Origin: a virus
DNA: 64,000 bases
Virus record (IMG/VR): IMGVR_UViG_3300032265_003789
Coordinates: 1 to 64,000 of that record
Direction: 5' to 3' (one strand)
The first letter of the stretch is position 1, and every line of letters starts with the position of its first letter. The notes below the pieces were generated by a model that was not told the origin of the DNA, did no database searches, and saw only the letters and a list, made by a program, of their open reading frames with translations. Below are positions 6,117 to 62,899 of this stretch, in pieces. The translations under genes were made by a program, and so were the position numbers.

Positions 6117-6144
6117 TACATTGTCTCTTTAGCACAAAAATTAA

Positions 6145-6600
6145 TACACTAAGTATATTTGCCTACAAAACAAGATATATGGAAACCTGATAAATCCGGC
6201 TGCTGGCGACAGAATATCTTATATATCCTATTTCAATACGATTACCGGTACGACACTCGATACGATTATCAATACAATATCCATATGAAAACCTGATGAA
6301 TCCGACTGCTATCGACAGAATATCTTATATATTCCCTTGTCGGTACGATTACCGGTACGATAACCCGTACAAATACTCGTACAGTATATATACAAATTCC
6401 TGATATTTTCCGGCAAAATCGACAGAATATCTTATATATTTCCCGGGTATCCGTACGTTTATCAATACGATTACCGACACATATAAGTAAAATCTCAAAA
6501 TATCTAGAAATATATAAGAAAGTTTATAGAAAAATACCCAAAATTAGGTATAAATACCTATTGATCTTCTAGGAAATATATCCGATAATATATATATTAG
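6145..6600 (+). repeat. Module R1: tandem ~106-bp units plus promoter
   Basis: AT-rich non-coding region with three related units of about 106 bp. Each contains GACAGAATATCTTATATAT (6208, 6314, 6421), preceded by a CCTGAT...CCGRC block and followed by palindromic TACCGGTA / CGTAC-rich sequence. The module ends in a strong promoter (6546-6589). Almost the same ~470-bp sequence lies inverted at 51860-52330 (R3), and a shorter relative lies at 18160-18531 (R2). The tandem units are upstream of the promoter, so they are probably protein-binding (activator, iteron or centromere-like) rather than transcribed. Confidence 0.85.
6546..6589 (+). promoter_or_regulatory. Promoter with AGGTATaaATACCT operator (R1)
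   Basis: Perfect inverted repeat AGGTAT-AA-ATACCT at 6546-6559, directly followed by -35 TTGATC (6561-6566), 17 bp, and -10 GATAAT (6584-6589). A strong ribosome site GATAAGGAGG follows before the ATG at 6622. The palindrome next to the -35 looks like an operator for a phage regulator. Confidence 0.75.
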
Positions 6601-6621
6601 CCCGATAAGGAGGTTCCGCTC

Positions 6622-6849
6622 ATGTCCTACTCAACTTTCGTTACTGCGTTCCGTTCCCACTACCTCGCTCTCGAGGTATCCCGCCCCGTTGCTTGCTTTT
6701 TTGTAGCCCAGGAGATCGCGGCTTTTGTTCAAGCCAACCGCATTTCCTACGCTCGTGCTCGCGCGTATTTCCAGCGCTTGGAGTTTGATGGACATATCCG
6801 TCTGATCGTCGTTCTCGGTGGCGTTGACACCATGTTCGAGTGGGTATAG
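6622..6849 (+). CDS. Small protein driven by module R1
   Basis: A 75-aa protein, MSYSTFVTAFRSHY..., mixed helix with a short hydrophobic stretch (VACFFVAQEIAAFV). It has a very strong Shine-Dalgarno sequence. Its codons are C/G-ending (cgt, ctc, gcc) and clearly richer in G+C than most of the phage, as expected for high expression or a different origin. It is monocistronic: promoter just upstream, intrinsic terminator 8 bp after the stop. No family recognised. R2 and R3 drive unrelated small proteins in the same layout. Confidence 0.75.
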   Translation: MSYSTFVTAFRSHYLALEVSRPVACFFVAQEIAAFVQANRISYARARAYFQRLEFDGHIRLIVVLGGVDTMFEWV

Positions 6850-6857
6850 TGCTCTCT

Positions 6858-6880
6858 CCCCCGAAAGGGGGTTTTTTTTT
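6858..6880 (+). terminator. Intrinsic terminator
   Basis: CCCCC-gaaa-GGGGG stem-loop followed by nine T. The same hairpin ends the R2 and R3 small genes. Confidence 0.9.
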
Positions 6881-6889
6881 GTCCATTAA

Positions 6890-7552
6890 CTACCTCGTAT
6901 TGATAAACCAATACTGCATGTCACCCCCCCTTGGCTTCGTGCTGCGTACCTGCGTTTTTACTATAGGTGCGCCATGCCTAGCCAAAGTTTGTAAGGTATT
7001 TTGCACCAGTGAGTAGGAAACTTCCCTGCCATATCTCGCTTGGTATTTTTCCGCAATTACCTGTGAATGCCTCCCCTCTGGACTAAGCAGGCTATAGATT
7101 TCTAGCGCTTTCTGGGCAGAATATGCCAGCGCTTTTTTTATAGGTAGCAAATCTATCCCATCTCGCAGTAGCTCGGCTAATATCGCTATCCCTTCGCTCT
7201 GGGCAGATTCGCACAGGAGCGGATAGCTGCTGATTTTTCTTAGGTGCCAATAGCTTAGGTGTTTCGAGGGAAACCCGGATCGCTCTACCCTGCGCGATAT
7301 GGGAGCGCCTGCTCGAACCATGGCTATCAGAAGGCTAGATATCCTGTGAGCGTCTAGCGGCTCGCTATACCTACTTTGGTAAATTGTAAATAAGTCCGTG
7401 GTACTTTGCGGGTAGTCCGTAAGCAGATCATACAACCTCAAGCCATTGCGAGCAGGGGGAATCAATACCGCCTCGGGTAGCGCCATATTCTGTGAGATTA
7501 TCTGAGATACCGCACTAAATACCTCGGTGCGCGATTGTATTGATTTTGCCAT
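6890..7552 (-). CDS. Putative DNA-binding protein with two winged-helix-like repeats
   Basis: A 220-aa basic protein made of two similar halves. About residues 35-120 are ALxxxxKALxLYxLL-like, then QSRYSEPL, then LLIAMVRAGAPISRRV, ending SYWHLR. About residues 130-218 run from ALAYSAQKALEIYSLL to EKYQARYGREVSYSLVQNTLQTLARHGAPI and end MQYWFI. The pattern (helix, helix, 'L..L...GAP', basic wing) suggests tandem winged helix-turn-helix domains. A single similar domain is at 17386-17727. Placed beside R1, it could be a regulator of the phage promoters (inference). No named family assigned. Confidence 0.6.
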   Translation of the reverse strand: MAKSIQSRTEVFSAVSQIISQNMALPEAVLIPPARNGLRLYDLLTDYPQSTTDLFTIYQSRYSEPLDAHRISSLLIAMVRAGAPISRRVERSGFPSKHLSYWHLRKISSYPLLCESAQSEGIAILAELLRDGIDLLPIKKALAYSAQKALEIYSLLSPEGRHSQVIAEKYQARYGREVSYSLVQNTLQTLARHGAPIVKTQVRSTKPRGGDMQYWFINTR

Positions 7553-8829: not shown

Positions 8830-8911
8830 ATTGTCGAAGGCTGGCAGCCAGCTAATCAGGTTATTCTTTTAGCGTACCATATAGGCTAATATCTTTTATT
8901 TTAAAAACCTA

Positions 8912-8940
8912 TTGACTTTCTCTAGAATATTGGATAAGCT
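8912..8940 (+). promoter_or_regulatory. Promoter of accessory cassette 1
   Basis: TTGACT (8912-8917), 17 bp, TAAGCT (8935-8940), then the shared leader AGTTAAAAAATACAGGAGAT ending in the ribosome site of the 8974 gene. ACCTAT before the -35 is a half of the AGGTATaaATACCT box. Confidence 0.75.
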
Positions 8941-8973
8941 TAGGGAAGTTAAAAAATACAGGAGATACGACAA

Positions 8974-9486
8974 ATGACTGCTACTCAATTGAAAAACGTA
9001 ATCAAAAATCTAAAATATATACCCGTCGTTTATGGGAAGATAACTATTCAAGAGGCATCTGCGGATGTTTTAGAGCATAAATCAAAAATTAAAGAGTGGC
9101 ACGCAAGTTTCCCCACACCTCAATTAGACGATTTTGAAGAAGCAATAACTGTATTGCTTAAGTTAGATACTGAGGTAAACTCCTCAAGACTGTATCTCAA
9201 AATCACAGAGACAGCATACGGGGAAACTTATTGTTTGTTTGCTGACAATAATATTTTGTATTGGTCTCGGCAAATTGACAACGGGCAATTTGCTTACACT
9301 GAACAAGCTTTTGAGGCAGAGCGCAAGGCGAGAGGCTTAAGCTCCAAAAAGTGTAAATTTGTACAATTGTGGCCCGAACCGTGGGAACACGACAAAGTTG
9401 CTGAGTATACAACCAATCCTTTAGTAGAAGGGGAATGGGCGTTCAAGCCATTGCCTAATAATAAATCCAAATGGGTTCGAGTGTAA
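8974..9486 (+). CDS. Accessory cassette protein 1
   Basis: 170-aa soluble protein, MTATQLKNVIKNLKYIPVVY.... It has alternating Lys/Glu-rich helices and strands (RLYLKITETAYGETYCLFA) and several Trp residues near the C-terminus (LWPEPWEHD, GEWAFKPL). No known domain recognised. It is the first of four genes that each have their own promoter, ribosome site AGGAGATACGACAAATG and hairpin terminator. Such layouts often hold host-takeover or anti-defence proteins; that role is only inferred. Confidence 0.6.
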   Translation: MTATQLKNVIKNLKYIPVVYGKITIQEASADVLEHKSKIKEWHASFPTPQLDDFEEAITVLLKLDTEVNSSRLYLKITETAYGETYCLFADNNILYWSRQIDNGQFAYTEQAFEAERKARGLSSKKCKFVQLWPEPWEHDKVAEYTTNPLVEGEWAFKPLPNNKSKWVRV

Positions 9487-9487
9487 C

Positions 9488-9605
9488 CCCCGAGGCTCGG
9501 TTGAGCCTCTTTTTTTTTGACCAAAACTTTTTTTAAAAACCTCTTGACTTTTCAGGCTATATACCCGATAATTAAGAAAGTTAAGAAATAAAGGAGATAC
9601 GACAA
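9488..9605 (+). repeat. Inter-cassette repeat A (terminator + promoter + leader)
   Basis: About 118 bp. Contains terminator GAGGCTC-ggtt-GAGCCTC plus T tract (9492-9518), then promoter TTGACT (9544-9549), 17 bp, GATAAT (9567-9572), then AAGAAAGTTAAGAAAT and AGGAGATACGACAA. Nearly the same sequence recurs at 9995-10113 and 10549-10670. Confidence 0.9.
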
Positions 9606-9992
9606 ATGACAACTTTCACTCACTACAGCCCTAACTACACTCAAAAAGACAAAGATTCCATCAAGTTGGCAGAAATCACTGATTGCACTGTCGAGCTAGT
9701 AGGCTCTCCCAAGCAAGTAGCTTGGGCTAAGCAAATCAAACAAAAATTATTTATCTCAATTGAGGTTTGTGCAAACACACAGACCCACACAGGCTCCACT
9801 TTTGGAGCGTTGCGCCTTGTCCAACGCGCTCTCTACTATGAAACTTCTGCTCAATTCTTTATTTTGCATCGCACCAAGCCCCTAAGCTGGTTTGAGTCGC
9901 ACTACGCCAAAAACCCTAAACAATATCCAGTTGAACGATTTGGGCCAATAGGCGCAGCCGAAGTGCGCAAATGGCTTAACGAAAATCCTTAA
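9606..9992 (+). CDS. Accessory cassette protein 2
   Basis: 128-aa basic protein. Residues 32-50 carry the stretch LVGSPKQVAWAKQIKQKL, a 'GS-KQ-WA-I' motif that I recall from assorted phage and plasmid proteins. The rest includes ALRLVQRALYYETSAQFFIL and a C-terminal AAEVRKWLNENP helix. Function unknown. Same regulatory frame as its neighbours but unrelated sequence, so the cassettes share control regions and not coding ancestry. Confidence 0.6.
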   Translation: MTTFTHYSPNYTQKDKDSIKLAEITDCTVELVGSPKQVAWAKQIKQKLFISIEVCANTQTHTGSTFGALRLVQRALYYETSAQFFILHRTKPLSWFESHYAKNPKQYPVERFGPIGAAEVRKWLNENP

Positions 9993-9994
9993 CA

Positions 9995-10113
9995 CCTCCG
10001 AGGCTCAACCGAGCCTCTTTTTTTTTGCCCAAAAACTTTTTTCCAAAACCTATTGACTTTTCAGGGTATATACCCGATAATGAAGAAAGTTAAGAAATAC
10101 AGGAGATTCAATC
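9995..10113 (+). repeat. Inter-cassette repeat B (terminator + promoter + leader)
   Basis: Terminator GAGGCTC-aacc-GAGCCTC with T tract (10000-10026). Promoter TTGACT (10053-10058), 17 bp, GATAAT (10076-10081), then the shared AAGTTAAGAAATACAGGAGAT leader. Confidence 0.9.
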
Positions 10114-10545
10114 ATGGAAACTAAAAAACATTTAATTAATGCAAACGTTTGGCTCGAATTGCAAAAACAAAATTTTATTTGTGCCCCAAACGAAGTTGAG
10201 TATTCCCTGCCTCCTCACGATGCCTTGCTTTTTGGAAAACACAAAGAAAATCAAAAAGCATACTACACTGCTCTCACTTGGGAAGGTGGCGGATTTTATC
10301 AACAAGGTGACTGGTTTTTATGTGATAATTGTTTTTTTTCTAGTTCATTTTTGGATATTGTGGAAGAATATAATACATTCGCATGTGAATTTGTAGGATA
10401 TCAACGCCTCCTACCATGCAGATTTTTTAGTCACACACTAGAAAACAAATTGACACAAAAACAACAAGACAAGTTAAACGAAGCTATCTCAGAGGGCAAG
10501 TTTCCTTCTCTCTCTGCCTATTTAGAGACGGAATTACTTAACTAA
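10114..10545 (+). CDS. Accessory cassette protein 3
   Basis: 143 aa, AT-rich, METKKHLINANVWLELQKQN.... Aromatic-rich centre with cysteines (FLCDNCFFSSSFLD) that might bind metal. The C-terminus LTQKQQDKLNEAISEGKFPS is helical. Not recognised. An overlapping alternative frame at 10139-10396 lacks a ribosome site and is rejected. Confidence 0.6.
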   Translation: METKKHLINANVWLELQKQNFICAPNEVEYSLPPHDALLFGKHKENQKAYYTALTWEGGGFYQQGDWFLCDNCFFSSSFLDIVEEYNTFACEFVGYQRLLPCRFFSHTLENKLTQKQQDKLNEAISEGKFPSLSAYLETELLN

Positions 10546-10548
10546 CAA

Positions 10549-10670
10549 ACACCCCCGAGGCTCAACCGAGCCTCTTTTTTTTTGCCCAAAAACTTTTTTT
10601 AAAAACCTATTGACTTTTCAGAGTATATACCCGACAATGAAGAAAGTTAAGAAATACAGGAGATTGAATC
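10549..10670 (+). repeat. Inter-cassette repeat C (terminator + promoter + leader)
   Basis: Terminator GAGGCTC-aacc-GAGCCTC plus T tract (10557-10583). Promoter TTGACT (10610-10615), 17 bp, GACAAT (10633-10638), then the shared leader and AGGAGATTGAATC before the ATG at 10671. Confidence 0.9.
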
Positions 10671-10970
10671 ATGACAACCGCTACTAAAACATATTTATCA
10701 GACAACCAAAAATTGGCAAATAAAGCTTTTATGCGCAATTGGAAAAAAACAGTGGGAGAGTTTTTGCCACTAATGGGGCTTAAAGGCACCACAGGTCGTT
10801 TTAAGCTAGTTTGCTTGAGTATTGATGAATATTACGTTCAATTAACCTTGAATGATTCGGGTAAGATTTGGAAAAGCAAAATATACAATAACCCAAGAGC
10901 TGCCGTTGACAAAGGCGTTACTCGGGCGATTCTGTTGCAAATGGTTGCTAGACGAAACGCAAATCCCTAA
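10671..10970 (+). CDS. Accessory cassette protein 4
   Basis: 99-aa basic protein, MTTATKTYLSDNQKLANKAF..., with a beta-rich centre (FKLVCLSIDEYYVQLTLNDSGKIWKSKIY) and a helical C-terminus. No family recognised. It ends the cassette array and has its own different terminator. Confidence 0.6.
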   Translation: MTTATKTYLSDNQKLANKAFMRNWKKTVGEFLPLMGLKGTTGRFKLVCLSIDEYYVQLTLNDSGKIWKSKIYNNPRAAVDKGVTRAILLQMVARRNANP

Positions 10971-16762: not shown

Positions 16763-17414
16763 AATTAATAGCTACAGGCCGCATGGCCACCCAGAATATA
16801 GCGATTCTGACGTGAGCACTTTTCACATTTTAGCCAGTAATAACCTCCTGCATTCAGATTTATTTCGCTGGGATTTGCCAAGCCTTAAGCAGATGGCCCG
16901 CACTTACCCTGGTAAACCCCTGATGCTGGATCATGATTGGGAGGATGTGCTTAAGCAATGCGGTTTTGTGTATGATGCTACCTTGCTGCATTATGCCAAT
17001 CCATCACCTGAGCTTAAAGAACATATGCTCTCTCACTCACCTAGACCTGAGATTGACAGCAAGACTCTAGAGCAAGAGGGACTGTATCAGTTAATGTGCC
17101 ACGTTGCTACAGAAACCTCTCACCCTATTACTAACGATCTGCACTACAACAGGAAAGTAAACGCTTCTATTGGTGGCTTTAGCACTGGAGAAACTTACTG
17201 CCCAATTTGTGATACAAGCTTTGAGGATGATAACTGTCCGCACTACTTGCCAGTAGGCAAGATCCACGGCAATGTAAAAGCTGAAAATATAGCTCCCTAT
17301 TGGATTCGTGGAGGCTACCTCAATACTGTGGAGCTCTCTCTGGTAATGGCAGGCAATTGCCCCAGCGCCAGAGTGCTCAATAGCTCTATTGCCCAGAAGA
17401 TGTGCCTGAGCTAG
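16737..17414 (+). CDS. Putative prohead protease / capsid maturation protein
   Basis: 225 aa. Seen: GKPLMLDHDWEDVLKQCGFVYDATL, then ASIGGFSTGETYCPIC with a CPIC...DNCPHY cysteine/histidine cluster, then YLNTVELSLVMAGNCPSARV. The 'DHD ... G.V.DA ... SIGF ... VELSLV ... A.V' arrangement is typical of phage head protein/protease family proteins located between portal and capsid. No catalytic residue can be assigned with confidence. Overlaps the MuF-like gene by 26 bp. Confidence 0.55.
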   Translation: MINPDTLNKINSYRPHGHPEYSDSDVSTFHILASNNLLHSDLFRWDLPSLKQMARTYPGKPLMLDHDWEDVLKQCGFVYDATLLHYANPSPELKEHMLSHSPRPEIDSKTLEQEGLYQLMCHVATETSHPITNDLHYNRKVNASIGGFSTGETYCPICDTSFEDDNCPHYLPVGKIHGNVKAENIAPYWIRGGYLNTVELSLVMAGNCPSARVLNSSIAQKMCLS

Positions 17415-17727
17415 CAGCCCATAACTTCGGCTTGCCTCGCACTTGCTTTTCTTCACACTTGATAGCTACTCCATTGGCTTGGAGTATCCGCAAGTAGATA
17501 TGAATGTGCGAGATTTGACCTGGCAATGTCGCTAATCCTCTGGCTTGCTCAGTGCGCTTGGCAATTTCAGCGCTGGTAATAAAGTTTTCATCCAGTACTG
17601 ACCAATAACATATGGCTTTGTAGGTAGCCTGGTATATTGCTTTTTCTGGCACAATAAGCGCAATCCCTTGGTTGATAAGCTCGGCTGCTGCTGCAATTTG
17701 CAGCTCTTCTGATTGTGATAATCCCAT
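17386..17727 (-). CDS. Small winged-helix-like protein
   Basis: 113 aa, MGLSQSEELQIAAAAELINQG.... The segment KAIYQATYKAICYWSVLD ... EIAKRTEQARG ... ISHIHIYLRILQANGVAIKCEEKQVRGKPKLWA matches the pattern of the two repeats in the 6890-7552 protein. A DNA-binding wHTH is therefore likely. It lies downstream of the ParB-like gene with a terminator in between, and overlaps the end of the protease-like gene antiparallel by 29 bp. Confidence 0.6.
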   Translation of the reverse strand: MGLSQSEELQIAAAAELINQGIALIVPEKAIYQATYKAICYWSVLDENFITSAEIAKRTEQARGLATLPGQISHIHIYLRILQANGVAIKCEEKQVRGKPKLWAASSGTSSGQ

Positions 17728-17784: not shown

Positions 17785-18084
17785 TTAGTTGTAGATGGCG
17801 ATTTGAGCTTTAATCGATTCGATCTCTTCGTCTTTTACGACAAAAGCGTCAATCATTTCCGCTTTCCTAGGATCCAATTGTCTAGCGCGGGCTGCTGCAT
17901 GGTAGCTGAGGTGCCCTGCGACAACCTCGAGCGATTCGATGTGAATCTGCTTGAGGATGATGGGTCGAACTAGCCCTCCATGCTGCAAAATACTTTTGGC
18001 TAATTCCTCAATATCGGTTTTAGAAAACTCGGTAGCAGGAACAACGGAAAAAATGTCTTTGATATCGACAAGAGCGTAACGCAT
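17785..18084 (-). CDS. ParB/Srx-fold domain protein (short)
   Basis: 99 aa that is essentially a lone ParB N-terminal domain: VDIKDIF, IEELAKSILQHGGLVRPIIL (box I-like), then LEVVAGHLSYHAAARARQLDPRKAEMIDAFVV (box II-like GHxRYxAA pattern, here GHLSYHAA with Arg changed to Ser). No helix-turn-helix or dimer domain follows, so it may be a regulator or nuclease-type ParB-like protein, not a full partition protein. Its promoter (18158-18201) is of the R-module type and faces away from the R2 plus-strand promoter. Confidence 0.75.
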   Translation of the reverse strand: MRYALVDIKDIFSVVPATEFSKTDIEELAKSILQHGGLVRPIILKQIHIESLEVVAGHLSYHAAARARQLDPRKAEMIDAFVVKDEEIESIKAQIAIYN

Positions 18085-18157
18085 GATGTGGTCTCCTAAT
18101 TGTTAAGGTACGGGCGCGGGTGGGGCGTGAGGCATTTCCTCTTTCACCTGTATATAC

Positions 18158-18201
18158 ATTATCGGATATATTTCCTAGAAGATCAATAGGTATTTATACC
18201 T
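18158..18201 (-). promoter_or_regulatory. Minus-strand R-type promoter for the ParB-like gene
   Basis: Reading on the minus strand: operator AGGTATaaATACCT (18188-18201), -35 TTGATC (18181-18186), 17 bp, -10 GATAAT (18158-18163). Same design as R1 and R3. Confidence 0.75.
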
Positions 18202-18531
18202 AATTTTGAATATTTTTTTATAGGATATCTTATGTATTTTCAAATATTTTAAGATTTTGCTTATATATTGTAATGACTGTATTGGTACATAGCAACAGAT
18301 ATACAAAATCCTGATGAGTTTTAGCAAAATCGACAGAATATCTTATGTATTTTTCGGGTATCCGTACGTTTATCAATACAATTATCGCTATACATAAGTA
18401 AAATCGCAAAATATTCAAAAACATATAAGAAAGTTTATAGGAAAATACCCAAAATTAAGTATAAATACCTATTGATCTTTTAGGGAATATATCCGATAAT
18501 ATATATATTAGCCCGATAAGGAGATTGTCCC
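18160..18531 (+). repeat. Module R2: short relative of R1 with divergent promoters
   Basis: Non-coding. Contains one copy of the GACAGAATATCTTATGTAT unit (18331) followed by GGTATCCGTACGTTTATCAA, the same ending as R1, and a plus-strand promoter. At its left is an oppositely oriented copy of the promoter end. It lacks the two upstream ~106-bp units seen in R1 and R3. Confidence 0.8.
18457..18500 (+). promoter_or_regulatory. R2 plus-strand promoter with operator
   Basis: Operator AAGTATaaATACCT (18457-18470), -35 TTGATC (18472-18477), 17 bp, -10 GATAAT (18495-18500), followed by GATAAGGAGAT and the ATG at 18532. Confidence 0.75.
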
Positions 18532-18693
18532 ATGTTTACCGCACCTGAAGAAATCCTAGACCTCGCTCAGCAAGAACAAGTAGCCCGCACTGCCCGTCGT
18601 CTCAAAGGCGAGCCCGAGCCACAAGCTCCTGACTTGGGTAGCGCCCAAGCTTCCATCAGGGAGCTCAAAGCCAGAGGGTGGTGGCCCCGCTAA
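18532..18693 (+). CDS. Small protein driven by module R2
   Basis: 53 aa, MFTAPEEILDLAQQEQVART...ELKARGWWPR. Highly charged and helical, with a C-terminal RGWWPR. Strong ribosome site, G+C-rich codons, terminator 9 bp after the stop. No similarity seen to the R1 or R3 small proteins. Function unknown. Confidence 0.75.
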   Translation: MFTAPEEILDLAQQEQVARTARRLKGEPEPQAPDLGSAQASIRELKARGWWPR

Positions 18694-18702
18694 CCACCTC
18701 CT

Positions 18703-18727
18703 CCCCCGAAAGGGGGATTTTTTTTTG
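18703..18727 (+). terminator. Intrinsic terminator
   Basis: CCCCC-gaaa-GGGGG stem, A, then T tract; same hairpin as after the R1 and R3 genes. Confidence 0.9.
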
Positions 18728-36356: not shown

Positions 36357-36422
36357 AACCCTTACCTAGTAATGCTTACAAATTTAGTTCCCGAAAAAGA
36401 TAAACAATCCAATTCTGTGCTA
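36356..36422 (+). repeat. 67-bp direct repeat, left copy
   Basis: Matches 36659-36725 (offset 303 bp) with a few mismatches. Both copies encode an ATG and MLTNLVxExxKQSxSVL. Confidence 0.85.
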
Positions 36423-36551
36423 AGCCATTATCAATCAGATTTAGCAAAGGCTCTGGTTGAATTGCGACAAAAAGCAATCAAGCAAGATCTGCAGCTGTGG
36501 ACAATTGAGCAGATTAACCAAGAGCTGAGCTTACGCCGTGGCACAAAATAA
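36372..36551 (+). CDS. 59-aa protein sharing the first 17 residues of the cas6-like gene
   Basis: MLTNLVPEKDKQSNSVL then an unrelated helical part (SHYQSDLAKALVELRQKAIK ... SLRRGTK). The shared beginning comes from the 67-bp duplication, so this may be a fusion of a copied start to another small gene. Overlaps 36538-36672. Confidence 0.5.
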   Translation: MLTNLVPEKDKQSNSVLSHYQSDLAKALVELRQKAIKQDLQLWTIEQINQELSLRRGTK

Positions 36552-36672: not shown

Positions 36673-36725
36673 TAATGCTTACAAATTTAGTTACCGAAAG
36701 AAATAAACAATCCGATTCTGTGCTA
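36659..36725 (+). repeat. 67-bp direct repeat, right copy
   Basis: Overlaps the start of the cas6-like gene; see 36356-36422. Confidence 0.85.
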
Positions 36726-37373
36726 GAGCAATTTCTAGAATTAGAATTTAAAGTATCAGGCTCATCCTTGCCAGCAGACAACGGATTTTCTCTATATAGT
36801 GCAATCAAGGCAATTGCTGGCGATTTACCAGAGGATATGCTGCTTTGCTCAATTCCCGGCAAATCAGATCCTCCGGGACTAATTAAGATTAACGATGGCT
36901 CAAGGCTCAGGCTAAGGGCTAAAGGGAGCGACACTGCCTATTACCAACAGGCTTTAGCAGGTAAAATTCTAAATATCAGAAATCACCAAATCAAATTAAT
37001 TAATATCAGCTTGAAGGAGATAGAGCCAAAAAGCAAGTTGCAAGCTCGAATTGTGACTTTTAAATTGCTAGGGATCTGGGACTACGGCAATCCTCCGGTT
37101 GATAGATTTTGGCACATCTGCAATAAGGCGCTAGCGACAATTGGCGTTACCGCAAGATTGGATTTTACTAGGGTTAGTTCGCTCAAGATTCACGATAGGT
37201 CCGTCTTGGAATTTGGCGTGATTGCCTCTCGATTATCCGAGCAAGACTCAATAACCTTGCAGCAAAAGGGTTTAGGGGGAAGAAAACACTTTGGATCGGG
37301 ATGGTTTTTTAAATTTTCTCAAATTAGGTATAAATACCTATTGACCCCCAACGAAAAATCGCATAAGCTATAG
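36675..37373 (+). CDS. cas6: Cas6-like RNA endonuclease family protein
   Basis: 232 aa, close in pattern to the Cas6/Cmx6 (I-MYXAN type) family. FKVSGSSLPADNGFSLYSAIKAI lies near residues 25-47 (family form 'LPxDHGyxLYsAl'), then CSIPGK and RLRLRAKGSDTAYYQQALAGKILNIRNHQIKL. After those come ARIVTFKL, EFGVIASRLSEQDSITLQQKGLGGRKHFGSGWF with the glycine-rich loop. Cas6 cuts CRISPR repeats to make crRNA. The His expected after Asp35 is Asn36 here, so cleavage may be lost. It lies just upstream of the csf genes. Its last ~18 residues are encoded by the next gene's operator and promoter. Confidence 0.75.
   Translation: MLTNLVTERNKQSDSVLEQFLELEFKVSGSSLPADNGFSLYSAIKAIAGDLPEDMLLCSIPGKSDPPGLIKINDGSRLRLRAKGSDTAYYQQALAGKILNIRNHQIKLINISLKEIEPKSKLQARIVTFKLLGIWDYGNPPVDRFWHICNKALATIGVTARLDFTRVSSLKIHDRSVLEFGVIASRLSEQDSITLQQKGLGGRKHFGSGWFFKFSQIRYKYLLTPNEKSHKL
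37326..37369 (+). promoter_or_regulatory. Operator and promoter inside the cas6-like 3' end
   Basis: AGGTATaaATACCT (37326-37339), -35 TTGACC (37341-37346), 17 bp, -10 TAAGCT (37364-37369). The shared AGAAAGTTAAGAAATTAATC leader follows and AGGAGATACAAA precedes the ATG at 37408. Confidence 0.75.
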
Positions 37374-37407
37374 AAAGTTAAGAAATTAATCAATTAGGAG
37401 ATACAAA

Positions 37408-37815
37408 ATGACACTTGCTACTACTTGCCTCAACGATCCCATCGAGACCAAATCTTTTGAAGGAGTTCAATTGAGAGGATCCTCTCAATTGCATCGCTTA
37501 GCCCAAGAAATTTGCAGCTTGTTTCAAGAAGAGGAAATGCAGGAAGAAGGATTAGATCCTTCGCACAAATCTCTGTACTATATCAAATCCGTTCCTCATG
37601 GAGAATCAACTACAATCATGTTTTGCGACGTTCGCACGAAAGCTGGTGTCACAGTGCGGTTAAAGGATCTGGCTACAGAAACAATACAGCACTTTGCATT
37701 TAGCGGAGGCAAAATATGCCTAGAAGTTGACACATTGCAAGCTCATGGTTTTGGAATTGTTGAAGCTAGTCTTGTCGGTCGGGAAAAAATGTCGCTTGCT
37801 GCTCTGACTTGCTAA
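37408..37815 (+). CDS. Hypothetical protein between cas6-like and csf1
   Basis: 135 aa, MTLATTCLNDPIETKSFEG...; mixed alpha/beta, with LHRLAQEICSLFQEEEMQEEGLD and TTIMFCDVRTKAGVTVRLKDLATE. Own early-type promoter, single gene, followed by a hairpin. No family recognised. It may be a phage accessory gene placed here by chance, or a partner of the CRISPR-like locus. Confidence 0.6.
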   Translation: MTLATTCLNDPIETKSFEGVQLRGSSQLHRLAQEICSLFQEEEMQEEGLDPSHKSLYYIKSVPHGESTTIMFCDVRTKAGVTVRLKDLATETIQHFAFSGGKICLEVDTLQAHGFGIVEASLVGREKMSLAALTC

Positions 37816-41625: not shown

Positions 41626-41641
41626 AATATTTTCCCAAATT

Positions 41642-41685
41642 AAGTATAAATACTTATTGACCCCTAATAGGAAATGGATTAAGCT
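41642..41685 (+). promoter_or_regulatory. Operator and promoter for the 41719-42450 pair
   Basis: AAGTATaaATACTT (41642-41655; both arms changed so the palindrome is kept), -35 TTGACC (41657-41662), 17 bp, -10 TAAGCT (41680-41685), then AAAAGTTAAGAAATTAATTA and GGAGATACGAG before the ATG. Confidence 0.75.
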
Positions 41686-41718
41686 ATAAAAGTTAAGAAA
41701 TTAATTAGGAGATACGAG

Positions 41719-41946
41719 ATGTCAATGGAATTATTTTTACGTGACGGCAAGTTGTATTACAGAACCGCTAAAGGGGACGTATTTGTCCTCAACGGACTAC
41801 GTAGCGAGATCATCAGAAACCCTTTCAATTATTTGGTTCACAGCGCAGTCTGTGACGCCACGGATACTTTCAACCTTATTGCCTCAAAAGAGGTAATCGC
41901 TGATCTAGTAGAATCTCTAGAAGCAGCCAGTGAAGTCGGATTTTAG
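41719..41946 (+). CDS. Small hypothetical early protein
   Basis: 75 aa, MSMELFLRDGKLYYRTAKGD...; strand-rich start, helical acidic end (ASKEVIADLVESLEAASEVGF). Expressed from the operator-bearing promoter just upstream, with 41965 as second gene. Confidence 0.6.
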   Translation: MSMELFLRDGKLYYRTAKGDVFVLNGLRSEIIRNPFNYLVHSAVCDATDTFNLIASKEVIADLVESLEAASEVGF

Positions 41947-51591: not shown

Positions 51592-51690
51592 TGACTTGTC
51601 GGTAAATCGCAAAAGGTATTGGTGCGCAACTATTAGCAGCACATATACTATTGCCCATAAAAAATCCAGTGGGTAGGAATGCTTATGGGC

Positions 51691-51713
51691 AAAAAAAATC
51701 CCCCTTTCGGGGG
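51691..51713 (-). terminator. Intrinsic terminator of the R3 small gene
   Basis: CCCCC-gaaa-GGGGG (minus strand) with T tract; same hairpin as for R1 and R2. Confidence 0.9.
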
Positions 51714-51721
51714 AGGGGTTA

Positions 51722-51856
51722 CTAAACTCCTCGAGCTGCGCGGATAGCCGCGCTACGAGCCAAAACAACATCAACATCATTGGGCTCATCGTTGTCAACG
51801 GTCATGACAATAGGAGCAACAACGGACTTAACAACGGACTTGGTGGACTGGGACAT
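51722..51856 (-). CDS. Small protein driven by module R3
   Basis: 44 aa, MSQSTKSVVKSVVAPIVMTV...AIRAARGV. Strong ribosome site (GATAAGGAGG), G+C-rich codons, terminator 8 bp after the stop. Unrelated to the R1 and R2 small proteins. Function unknown. Confidence 0.7.
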   Translation of the reverse strand: MSQSTKSVVKSVVAPIVMTVDNDEPNDVDVVLARSAAIRAARGV

Positions 51857-51859
51857 AAC

Positions 51860-52330
51860 GAACCTCCTTATCGGGCTAATATATATATTATCGGATATAT
51901 CCCTTAAGAGATCAATAGGTATTTATACCTAATTTTGGGTATTTTTTTATAAACTTTCTTATATATTTCTAGATATTTTGAGATTTTACTTATATGTGTC
52001 GGTAATCGTATTGATAAACGTACGGATACCCGAAAAATATATAAGATATTTTGTTGATTTTGCCAGAAATTATCAGGAATTTGTATATATACTGTACGGG
52101 TATTTGTACGGGTTATCGTACCGGTAATCGTACCGACAAGGGAATATATAAGATATTCTGTCGATAGCAGCCGGATTTATCAGGTTTCCGTATGGATATT
52201 GTATTGATAATCGTATCGAGTGTCGTACCGGGTATCGTATTGAAATAGGATATATAAGATATTCTGTCGCCAGCAGCCGAATTCATCAGGTTTTTGTATA
52301 TTTCGCTTTATAGGCAAATATACTTAGTGT
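51860..52330 (-). repeat. Module R3: inverted near-copy of R1
   Basis: About 470 bp that, read on the minus strand, follows R1 closely from AATACACTAAGTATATTTGC through three GACAGAATATCTTATATAT-type units (the one nearest the promoter reads AACAAAATATCTTATATAT) to the promoter. It forms a long inverted repeat pair with R1, about 45 kb apart. Confidence 0.85.
51887..51930 (-). promoter_or_regulatory. R3 promoter with operator
   Basis: On the minus strand: AGGTATaaATACCT (51917-51930), TTGATC (51910-51915), 17 bp, GATAAT (51887-51892). Confidence 0.75.
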
Positions 52331-52461
52331 ATTGATATCTGTACAATCTACTGTATGGATAATTGATCTGTAGTGCGCTTGTGTATAAGCACAAAAGAAC
52401 CCACCGTTTGCAGGTACCTATTGCGGCATAGCTGGGTGAGTTGTGTTGTGTATAGTATAGC

Positions 52462-53172
52462 TTAGTTCAGTTGAGCAAAAACACTGTGTATTGCATTTTC
52501 TAGTTCGTGACTGTCCTCGTAGCAGTTGATCGGTCGCATTTGCCCGTTGCAATATCTTTCCTCTCTGGTATATGGAAGTCCAGTGTCTTTTACTAATTTG
52601 CCAATCCGAACTCTTTGACTGTGATCCAATTTGTAGCCTAGCTCTTCTGCTTTTTGCACTACTCCTACTAATCTAGGTGCGGTGGCTATTTGCCCAAGGA
52701 TTTTAGTAGTAATCATTTCATCCCCAAGGCGATCTAGGAAAGCCTGCTTGAGGGCTGCTGGCATGGCAGTAGTGGTTATTACAGCCAGCGATTTGGCATA
52801 ATCCACTACGTCTCTTACCGGTGGCAGCTGCCTAGCGGGTTGACGCTCAACTTGATAGCCTCCAGTTTGACGGATTGAGGGGAGCACTACTGCGGTAATC
52901 CATTTCTTAAAGACTTTGGCTTCGGGTTTGCGAGATTTAAGGACAAGGCTGTACATGCCGGATTCGGAAATTATAGATATTTCTTGTGAGCCGCCAAGGG
53001 TGTCGGCATTAACGACCCCCTTTTCATCCTCATCTAATTTGTTGATTGCATCTCTAGGATTAGCTATTTCTAAAGCATTGCATACATCCTTGGCAACAAA
53101 CCAAGGTTGTCCTTCAATAGACACTGTGCGAACTTGATTGGAGTTAAAATCAAAAGCTGTAAGATTGCTCAT
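52462..53172 (-). CDS. BRO-N domain antirepressor
   Basis: 236 aa. Residues 1-105 are a BRO/Bro-N domain (FDFNSNQVRTVSIEGQPWFVAKDVCNALEIANPRDAINKLDEDEKGV ... SEISIISESGMYSLVLKSRKPEAKVFKKWI). The C-terminal part, residues about 150-236, is a second domain ending EDSHELENAIHSVFAQLN, probably DNA- or repressor-binding. Antirepressors relieve the lysogenic repressor during induction. Its first 8-9 codons are copied at 54620-54645 by the 98-bp repeat. Confidence 0.8.
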   Translation of the reverse strand: MSNLTAFDFNSNQVRTVSIEGQPWFVAKDVCNALEIANPRDAINKLDEDEKGVVNADTLGGSQEISIISESGMYSLVLKSRKPEAKVFKKWITAVVLPSIRQTGGYQVERQPARQLPPVRDVVDYAKSLAVITTTAMPAALKQAFLDRLGDEMITTKILGQIATAPRLVGVVQKAEELGYKLDHSQRVRIGKLVKDTGLPYTREERYCNGQMRPINCYEDSHELENAIHSVFAQLN

Positions 53173-53244
53173 ATATGGTTGTCGATATGATTGATAACCT
53201 CAATAATATCAAGACCTAAAAACCCCAATTTTTACCAGAAATTA
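53147..53244 (+). repeat. 98-bp direct repeat, left copy
   Basis: Identical to 54620-54717 except one base (GTCGATATG versus GTCGGTATG). Contains the antirepressor start and its 5' region. Together the copies bracket the PtuA-like cassette. Confidence 0.95.
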
Positions 53245-54524
53245 TGAAGATCACCAAAATAAATTTATCAAATTTTCGAGGAGTTGAATCTCTATCTTTA
53301 AAGCTTCATGAAAGATTAAATGTATTATTTGGGATGAATGGTACCGGAAAATCAACAATTTTCTATGCTGTTGCAATAATGCTTTCATGGACTATCCAAA
53401 GAATAAAATCTATCCAATCTAATGGAAAGGATATTCCACAACTTGATATTAAAAATGGATCTCATAGATCATCAATAGAGATATTTTGTAGTGATAACAA
53501 TAGGGAAATTTTTTGGAGGCGCACTAACCATTTAGAAGGATATGGTTTGTCAGAAGAGCGCAGTGATTTTACCCATTTAAACGAATATGTAAAACAAATT
53601 CAAGATGAAATAGCTGCACAAAAAGAAAAAATTAATTTACCTTTATTTGTTTATTATCCAGTTAATCGAGCAGTTTTAGATATTCCTTTACGAATTAAGT
53701 CTAAACATCAATTTGATTTACTTGCTGCTTATGAAGATGCATTAACAAGTGGAGCTAATTTTCGTACTTTTTTTGAATGGTTTAGAGACAGAGAGGATCG
53801 TGAAAATCAAAACAGAAAATATATAGATGCTTTAATAAAGCCAGAGGATTATGTTTTTCCCGATCCTCAGCTTGAAGCAGTACGTCAAGCATTGCAAGAA
53901 TTTTTACCTGAATTTAAAAATATAAATGTAATAAGAAATAATCCTCCTAGAATGGAAGTAACAAAAAATGGGGAAATATTGCGAATCGATCAACTTTCTG
54001 ATGGAGAAAAATGCTTGATTGCTATGATAAGTGATTTAGCTCGTAGATTAGCTATTGCCAATCCAAAACGAGACAATCCATTAGAAGGCGAAGGAATCGT
54101 ATTAATTGATGAAATAGAGCTACATCTTCATCCAAAATGGCAAAGAATGATCGTTCCTAAATTATTAGAAGTATTTCCTAATTGTCAATTTATTATTTCA
54201 ACTCATTCTCCAAACGTTATCACACATGTTAAACCTGAAAGTCTTTATTTACTTGAACAATCTCAAGGAAAGATAAACGTTAGTAAACCCCAAGAATCTT
54301 ATGGAAAGACTGTAGAAAGAATTCTTGAAGATCTTATGGGATTAACCACAACAAGACCTGATGAAGTAAATGTTAAACTTCGTGAAATATATGACAAAAT
54401 TCAACAAGGCAATCTTGATGAAGCTAAGCAAATGATAGACTCTATGAGAAAAATAATTGCCGAAGACCCTGAATTAGTTAAAGCAGAAGTTTTGATTAAG
54501 CGTAAAAAAATAATTGGCAAATGA
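53244..54524 (+). CDS. PtuA-like (Septu-type) AAA ATPase
   Basis: 426 aa. Walker A GMNGTGKST at residues 30-38, a helical insert of about 150 residues, signature LSDGEKCLIAMISDLARR near 250, Walker B IVLIDEIELHLHPKWQRMIVPKLL near 286, and FIISTHSPNVITH. This SMC/OLD-like form occurs in Septu PtuA and retron-associated ATPases, which fight phage together with an HNH protein (PtuB). A ptuB remnant overlaps its stop. Codons are much more AT-rich than the surrounding terminase genes. Probably an inter-phage defence gene. Confidence 0.75.
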   Translation: MKITKINLSNFRGVESLSLKLHERLNVLFGMNGTGKSTIFYAVAIMLSWTIQRIKSIQSNGKDIPQLDIKNGSHRSSIEIFCSDNNREIFWRRTNHLEGYGLSEERSDFTHLNEYVKQIQDEIAAQKEKINLPLFVYYPVNRAVLDIPLRIKSKHQFDLLAAYEDALTSGANFRTFFEWFRDREDRENQNRKYIDALIKPEDYVFPDPQLEAVRQALQEFLPEFKNINVIRNNPPRMEVTKNGEILRIDQLSDGEKCLIAMISDLARRLAIANPKRDNPLEGEGIVLIDEIELHLHPKWQRMIVPKLLEVFPNCQFIISTHSPNVITHVKPESLYLLEQSQGKINVSKPQESYGKTVERILEDLMGLTTTRPDEVNVKLREIYDKIQQGNLDEAKQMIDSMRKIIAEDPELVKAEVLIKRKKIIGK

Positions 54525-54663
54525 AGCATATTAGAAAAAACAAGAACCGGCATCTTTTTCAAACTGGAAATCTCAAGCTAACGATGATTGGAGACCAGCC
54601 TATGAAAATTTTCAAGGTGAAATCAAAAGCTGTAAGATTGCTCATATATGGTTGTCGGTATGA
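54521..54663 (+). pseudogene. Truncated PtuB-like remnant with frameshift
   Basis: ATGA overlap with ptuA. Frame 0 reads MKHIRKN; after a -1 shift at A AAA AAC (54535-54541) it continues QEPASFSNWKSQANDDWRPAYENFQGEIK, matching the N-terminus of PtuB-type proteins. It then runs into the right 98-bp repeat and stops at 54663. The HNH domain is missing. Confidence 0.65.
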
Positions 54664-54717
54664 TTGATAACCTCAATAATATCAAGACCTAAAAACCCCA
54701 ATTTTTACCAGAAATTA
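54620..54717 (+). repeat. 98-bp direct repeat, right copy
   Basis: Begins exactly where the ptuB-like sequence breaks off and ends at the terL stop codon. See 53147-53244. Confidence 0.95.
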
Positions 54718-61516: not shown

Positions 61517-61732
61517 CTACAGCTTATCTAAAGCCTCCAGCCATTTTTCTATATTTATCTGAAGCTTTTTATCACTGATTTGTCGCCAATGCTCACCGCG
61601 CTTGAAGGGGCTTTGTCCTGGAAAGTTTTTGGCTTTACGAATTTGCAAGTAGAATAGATGCTGCTTGATCCCTGATAATTGCGCAGCAGTCGCCACGTCG
61701 ACCCACTGTACTTGTATTGTAAAACTTTTCAT
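61517..61732 (-). CDS. Small excisionase-like DNA-binding protein
   Basis: 71 aa, MKSFTIQVQWVDVATAAQLSGIKQHLFYLQIRKAKNFPGQSPFKRGEHWRQISDKKLQINIEKW...; helix-turn-helix followed by 'FKRGxHWR', the MerR-like pattern of excisionases and AlpA-type factors. Divergent from the integrase (57 bp apart), as expected for a recombination directionality factor. Confidence 0.6.
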   Translation of the reverse strand: MKSFTIQVQWVDVATAAQLSGIKQHLFYLQIRKAKNFPGQSPFKRGEHWRQISDKKLQINIEKWLEALDKL

Positions 61733-61789
61733 TTATTGGTGTATTTAATTGATATCCTAAAAAATATCACAATCAAAAAACCGCAAAAA

Positions 61790-62899
61790 ATGGACAAAAA
61801 GCTGACAGAGGAATTGACAAAAATTAACCTGCGATTAAGCAAAATCAAATTAAGAATTAAAAATAATCGAGTATATCTGAGGGGCACTTTACCGCCTAAA
61901 CCCAATGAGGGAGTATTACCTCGACAATATGAGCTAAGCACTGGTTTAGCTGCCAACCCACAGGGATTAAAAATAGCTCTAGCTAGAGCTCAAGAGATTG
62001 AATCAAGATTAGTGCTCAATCAATTTAGCTGGGGTGATTACCTGCAAAACGGCATCCTAGGCACTAAGCCGGCGTCACAGTGGATTGCAGAATTTGAAGA
62101 GCATTACTGGCTTACTCACCAGAAAACCACCAAAAGAAAATATGTTTTTGATGTGCATTGGGGCAACGCATTTAGTCGACTTGCTCCAGATGAGCCACTA
62201 AGCGAAAAAGCCATAATTCCAATTATTAGCGCGTATTCGGTAGATAGTCCCCGTCGCGATATGCTGCTAAATTACTATATTCAATTGTTCAAATTTGCTG
62301 GCATAGCAAACACTTTACACCAATTAAAAGTAAGTTGGAAAGTGAAAATCAAACGAGAACTTCCCAGTGATTTAGAACTAATTGATTTTGTCGATTCAGT
62401 CAATCCGGATTACAGGTGGATTTTTGGCACACTTGCAGCCTATGGTTTACGCAGTCATGAGTTAATAGAATTAGATCTTTCCAGAGCGCATATAGAGCCT
62501 TATGTTGTGAAGGTAAGCGACAATACAAAAACTGGCGCTCGGTTAGTTTATCCTGTACCTGGGGATTGGGTAAATCGCTGGAAATTATACGAAAAGCATG
62601 ACCCGATATACAAAACACGATTTATTAACTACGATTACGGCACTAGAATATACAAACTCTTTCTAAGAGAAACAAAACGACTTAAAATAAGGACAATGAG
62701 TCCATATCATTTTAGAGACGCGTATGCAGTGCGTTGCTCTTTATTGGGAGTAGATGCCGCTATTGCCTCAAAGTGGATGGGGCACAGCTTAAAAATTCAC
62801 TGGGAATCCTATTTAAAATTCTTTGATGAAAATCATCATAATCAAGCTTGGATGGAGATGAACAAAAATATTAAATCAAAATCTAAAAAGGGGCTTTAA
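61790..62899 (+). CDS. Tyrosine site-specific integrase, XisA-like
   Basis: 369 aa from ATG 61790. Catalytic residues: Arg in YGLRSHEL (near 222), Lys in TKTGARL, Tyr-x-x-Arg in SPYHFRDAYAVR (near 303-307; Tyr replaces the usual His), His in KWMGHSLK, nucleophile Tyr in WESYLKFF (near 341). The Tyr-for-His change is what I recall for the heterocyst excision recombinases XisA/XisC and relatives. N-terminal DNA-binding part is about 1-160. Integrates and excises the phage. Confidence 0.85.
   Translation: MDKKLTEELTKINLRLSKIKLRIKNNRVYLRGTLPPKPNEGVLPRQYELSTGLAANPQGLKIALARAQEIESRLVLNQFSWGDYLQNGILGTKPASQWIAEFEEHYWLTHQKTTKRKYVFDVHWGNAFSRLAPDEPLSEKAIIPIISAYSVDSPRRDMLLNYYIQLFKFAGIANTLHQLKVSWKVKIKRELPSDLELIDFVDSVNPDYRWIFGTLAAYGLRSHELIELDLSRAHIEPYVVKVSDNTKTGARLVYPVPGDWVNRWKLYEKHDPIYKTRFINYDYGTRIYKLFLRETKRLKIRTMSPYHFRDAYAVRCSLLGVDAAIASKWMGHSLKIHWESYLKFFDENHHNQAWMEMNKNIKSKSKKGL

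Follow-up and report, generated by a model that had tools for sequence, protein, structure and literature searches.

Repeated promoter modules of a probable temperate cyanophage appear to form exchangeable cassettes for short ORFan genes downstream of a putative protein-binding array of 12-bp dyad repeats

The window analysed covers the first 64000 bases of a virus record of 79,733 bases (79.7 kb; hereafter G000) and contains three repeated modules, R1, R2 and R3, all copies of which are non-coding and end, as the first-pass annotation had described, in a common promoter followed by a ribosome-binding site (RBS) and the ATG of a tiny ORF. The R1 module (6134-6616, plus strand) consists of a three-unit upstream array, a proximal AT-rich region, the promoter and the RBS, and the R3 module (51860-52342, minus strand) likewise contains three units, the proximal region, promoter and RBS. 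Sequence comparison of R1 with R3 gave a 483-nt match at 94% identity with no gaps, upholding the earlier description of R1 and inverted R3 as near-identical non-coding DNA, and the three units spaced 106-107 bp were recovered as claimed: the unit containing GACAGAATATCTTATATAT recurs in R1 at 6177, 6283 and 6390, with spacings of 106 and 107, and in R3 at 52037, 52144 and 52250 (106-107 bp apart), with the conserved blocks of R1 lying on the plus strand at 6177-6226 (unit 1, which contains GACAGAATATCTTATATAT), 6283-6332 (unit 2) and 6390-6439 (unit 3). R2 had been credited with a single unit, which is present in its plus arm (18299-18526, plus strand; block 18301-18350, 12-bp repeats 18362-18397; a 228-nt ungapped alignment to R1 at 89% identity), and it contains more than this, namely a second, array-less copy of the promoter in a minus arm (18151-18287, minus strand; 137-nt ungapped alignment; promoter at 18191). 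R2 is thus two head-to-head copies, i.e. a divergent pair, of which only the plus arm has a unit. With 31 differences between R1 and R3, and with the module also carried by an independent contig, an assembly artefact of the kind raised earlier, in which a re-assembly would leave only one copy, is unlikely.

Behind the conserved block of each unit lie three or four 12-bp tandem repeats with the consensus CGGTACGATTAC, each of which, on direct reading, is a GTA-N4-TAC dyad. On the plus strand of R1, unit 1 contains four repeats (CAATACGATTAC, CGGTACGACACT, CGATACGATTAT and CAATACAATATC; 6234-6281), unit 2 also four (CGGTACGATTAC, CGGTACGATAAC, CCGTACAAATAC and TCGTACAGTATA; 6341-6388) and unit 3 three, the last of them degenerate (6451-6486). 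The TACCGGTA palindromes listed in the first-pass annotation are present and can be read directly as the junctions between neighbouring 12-bp repeats, which had been overlooked. Across the units of R1, R3 and the related contig G001, the lag-12 match was 0.50-0.57 vs 0.25-0.28 for dinucleotide shuffles, 12 was the best lag within 5-20 in every unit, and the periodicity was significant (p 0.000-0.024 per unit, with the maximum over lags 5-20 taken). A scan of the whole 79.7-kb record found high-scoring 12-bp repeat triplets in R1, R2 and R3 only. The array stands at a fixed distance 5' of the promoter, with its last repeat approximately 75 bp before the palindrome TAGGTATAAATACCTA, and, being upstream, should therefore not be transcribed from that promoter. 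A long conserved non-coding stretch might be expected of an array encoding a structured or regulatory RNA, but the single-strand fold was no better than those of shuffles (z -0.26, DNA parameters) and an Rfam search returned no match; this explanation was rejected as extremely unlikely.

Variable columns were compared among the three full copies, which are kin to each other (R1, R3 and the R3 module of G001). These numbered 3/127 in the repeats and 19/180 in the blocks (p = 0.006); the proximal region had 1/85 and the promoter core 12/38, all within segment limits set post hoc, with the differences in view. As the array is locked in register with the promoter and its repeats vary less than the remainder of the unit, a protein-binding regulatory array, raised earlier as an activator array among other options, would fit best. 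The array of 12-bp repeats probably binds a control protein, as yet putative, and a protein-bound control element with a presumed role in regulation is the best inference from sequence. The R2 minus-arm promoter would, if it is active, work with no array of its own, which counts against array-based control.

The R1 promoter (6545-6589, plus strand) comprises the palindrome TAGGTATAAATACCTA, a -35 element TTGATC (6561), a 17-bp spacer and a -10 element GATAAT (to 6589), and this sigma-70-type arrangement, predicted to be a host-type promoter from its match to the consensus, occurs in all four copies (R1, both arms of R2, and R3). The three array-linked promoters lead into three different ORFs, each closed by a common terminator, CCCCCGAAAGGGGG followed by a T run: a 75-aa ORFan in R1 (6622-6849, plus strand; terminator 6851-6880), a 53-aa ORFan in the R2 plus arm (18532-18693, plus strand; terminator 18697-18726) and a 44-aa ORFan in R3 (51722-51856, minus strand; terminator 51685-51712). 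A family search found no match for any of the three, and a search of PDB structures with the 75-aa ORF of R1 gave a best match of only E 0.96. Their GC content (0.51-0.59) exceeds that of all 63 phage genes scanned that encode 100 aa or more (maximum 0.493), so these ORFans were probably acquired or are unusually codon-biased. The R2 minus arm drives a fourth cargo gene, which encodes a 99-aa protein with a ParB_N domain only (17785-18084, minus strand).

Related promoters without an array were located at 37326, 41642, 8907-10605 and 56754. That at 37321-37407 (plus strand) drives a 135-aa cargo gene (37408-37815), another occupies 41637-41718 (plus strand), and the region 8899-10970 (plus strand) holds a tandem series of four small genes, every one of them under its own CCTATTGAC-type promoter, the genes at 8974-10970 being separated by terminator-promoter composites (a 131-nt repeat, 9482-10678). 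A 21-base promoter piece was matched in G001, in its close relative G002, in the unrelated phage contig L068 and in two MAG contigs; the match in L070 falls within a coding region and was taken as chance. In a Deltaproteobacteria MAG (L071:2200-2226), a promoter piece around AAATTAGGTATAAATACCTATTGACC lies upstream of a gene and is identical over 27 bases to 37321-37347; it may be a recurrent promoter-operator or a chance occurrence. Weak near matches to the palindrome TAGGTATAAATACCTA (E 0.3-4) precede genes in two phages, Mastigocladus phage CHP58 and Synechococcus phage S-CRES3, and another coincides with a host promoter predicted in Pectobacterium phage PP81. The palindrome is not specific to this phage, and no mention of it was found in the literature searched.

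Conservation in relatives, to which the first-pass annotation had tied its reading, was found in the independent contig G001 (IMGVR_UViG_3300010334_006366), a 45.8 kb fragment whose alignment to G000 starts at 33.5 kb, runs to the end and covers the R3 locus, not R1 or R2. The search of other phages and plasmids that had been advised showed no wider occurrence: blastn against GenBank phages and PLSDB plasmids returned no relatives of the array, pattern scans of IMG/VR with the unit and with the 12-bp repeats returned G001 only, and just two contigs, this phage and the one relative, are known to carry the array. A 20-base pattern also hit contigs L080 and L081, which had no array, and these hits were taken as chance. 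The R3 module of G001 shares 95% identity with R1, from which it differs at 23 positions, and differs from R3 at 29; the paralogue R1 being as close to it as the orthologue R3, this suggests that module copies exchange sequence with one another. Homology between G000 and G001 is lost at 51717 and regained at 51833; the break falls exactly over the tiny ORF of R3, where G001 has an 82-aa ORF that shares just a few initial codons with the 44-aa ORF. Cargo also differs at two of the array-less promoters in G002 (L067), where other genes stand in place of the 135-aa gene at 37408-37815 and where an additional gene of 100 aa, with a terminator, is inserted at 41719, before the next gene.

Repetition of the modules, the ungapped register of array and promoter, different cargo in each copy, and replacement of cargo with promoter and terminator kept were all directly observed. 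For R3 and the two further loci, exchangeable promoter-ORFan-terminator cassettes are well supported, and we infer the same for R1 and R2. Homology for recombination, another of the options put forward earlier, also fits, given the exchange of cargo between modules and relatives. In its strictest form, the modules would be recombination homology and nothing else, with an array that has no bound protein and persists through copies converting one another, as would be consistent with the equal similarity of paralogous and orthologous copies and with cargo exchanges that are delimited by module and terminator. However, the 12-bp periodicity in every unit would be needless for homology alone, and the lower variability of the repeats than of the blocks suggests constraint on the repeats themselves, making this form of the explanation unlikely.

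Two candidates for the array-binding protein lie beside the modules. The protein encoded at 6890-7552 (minus strand) has two similar halves and is a paralogue of that at 17386-17727 (minus strand), the two genes adjoining R1 and R2. Both had been put forward earlier as wHTH proteins that might bind the array, and as such they stay putative, their fold models being of low confidence (AlphaFold models of P0001 and P0002, mean pLDDT 42 and 50). Neither tblastn nor a related-locus search found relatives elsewhere of the double-wHTH-like proteins near the modules or of P0001 and P0004, and no paralogue of the 6890 and 17386 proteins was found in G001, a fragment in which the R3 module is intact. 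TubR, which acts in type III partition, is a wHTH protein. In the tubC centromeres of such systems, a promoter is preceded by several short repeats, which provide multiple TubR sites (PMC7762940), a layout resembling the arrays here; the two differ in that no TubZ match was found in this record and that the arrays drive ORFans, not tubRZ. The likeness to tubC-tubR, with candidate wHTH-like proteins nearby, and the ParB_N gene driven by R2 could be explained if the arrays were centromeres of a plasmid-like prophage, of parS, parC or tubC type, to which a wHTH or ParB protein would bind. Against such an explanation, the domain content of the ParB-like protein is limited to ParB_N (residues 15-68 of 99), with no HTH, the R2 arm that drives it has no array, the integrase-like gene of the phage suggests chromosomal integration, and the arrays are dispersed and locked to promoters that each drive a different ORFan and not a partition operon. 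Profile searches of the record, which may be incomplete, found no PF13614 (AAA_31) match to a ParA Walker ATPase and no PF00091 match to a TubZ GTPase, of which a divergent form could be missed, while PF06406 (ParM) matched neither the record nor any control genome. The partition role suggested in the first-pass annotation is consequently unsupported, and centromeres are considered very unlikely.

Arrays that are AT-rich, repeated and non-coding could also be iterons, acting as replication origins or replication enhancers, as had likewise been proposed. A more typical origin-like locus, however, lies at record positions 64046-64358 (L007:2046-2358), with TCTTCACA/TGTGAAGA repeats, a 52-nt inverted repeat and an AT-rich centre, adjoining a primase-like gene (65154-68531) and near a Cro-like HTH gene; this locus would be a likelier origin than the arrays. 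The GC-skew mapping that had been advised placed the cumulative minimum near 23 kb and the maximum near 67 kb, away from R1 and R3, and an iteron function for the arrays is highly unlikely.

On balance, R1-R3 would be exchangeable expression cassettes, each made up of the array, a strong sigma-70-type promoter, an RBS, a short variable ORF and the common terminator, with a protein-bound array controlling transcription and cargo acting on the host, an explanation held with some confidence, short of strong. Under such a scheme, host RNA polymerase would transcribe the cassette promoters early, a DNA-binding protein of phage or host would bind contiguously along the 12-bp dyad repeats and repress or activate these promoters together, cargo would be swapped by homologous recombination through module and terminator, and the cargo proteins would act on the host. 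A more speculative extension, considered rather doubtful, is that a protein forming a filament on the 12-bp dyad tandem repeats that precede early promoters co-ordinates the exchangeable ORFan slots, i.e. a partition-like filament put to transcription control. The cassettes have the appearance of interchangeable slots into which short, host-directed genes are placed. Many short genes of obscure role that phages swap probably disarm the host, and a common promoter-terminator frame makes such genes findable by the frame and not by sequence similarity, with the array as a concrete target for finding their regulator.

Among known systems, the best reading is that of cassettes of the PeSL or moron kind. 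Morons are promoter-ORF-terminator units between phage genes, as the R1-R3 cassettes are, and differ in that here there are several copies with one common promoter and terminator, and the structural context is established for parts of the genome. Promoter early stem-loops (PeSLs) of T4-like phages (Arbiol et al. 2010; Comeau et al. 2014), in the account of them given in PMC4503421, similarly flank small ORFs, which are shuffled between relatives, with recurrent promoter and terminator motifs. The same promoter and terminator motif recurs at several loci here, the ORFs between the motifs differ among related phages, and the PeSL layout as outlined there is matched by the 131-nt composites at 9482-10678; the PeSL carriers described are T4-like, and the best terminase matches here are Nodularia phages (42%). 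R1-R3 differ in their 300-bp upstream array of 12-bp repeats, which to our knowledge is no part of PeSLs. The 13-bp start-associated sequences GGGATAGGAGCCC of cluster K mycobacteriophages (SAS) and the 17-bp inverted repeats of their extended form (ESAS) are also non-coding elements that recur directly 5' of genes, some of them with the extended inverted repeat (PMC3203893), while R1-R3, read directly, carry a full promoter and tandem 12-bp repeats. The new part is the 12-bp dyad array, the kind of cassette being already known from PeSLs and morons.

The Nodularia-phage terminase matches, together with the integrase-like gene, the Cro-like HTH gene and a BRO antirepressor, indicate that the phage is probably a temperate cyanophage. 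The integrase-like gene is of the tyrosine-recombinase type (61679-62899, plus strand; phrog_1, E 1e-11). A Cas6/Cmx6-like gene (36675-37373, plus strand; Pfam 1e-39) is preceded by a short ORF (36372-36551) that repeats its N-terminal coding region (67-nt repeat), and no other cas genes or CRISPR array were noticed among the genes scanned. A PtuA-like (Septu) ATPase gene (53244-54524, plus strand) lies between direct repeats at 53142-53244 and 54615-54717 (103 bp, 97% identity), and G001 lacks the gene and has one copy of the repeat. Near the end of the record is a 22-bp tandem repeat of 3.9 copies (L007:17370-17454).
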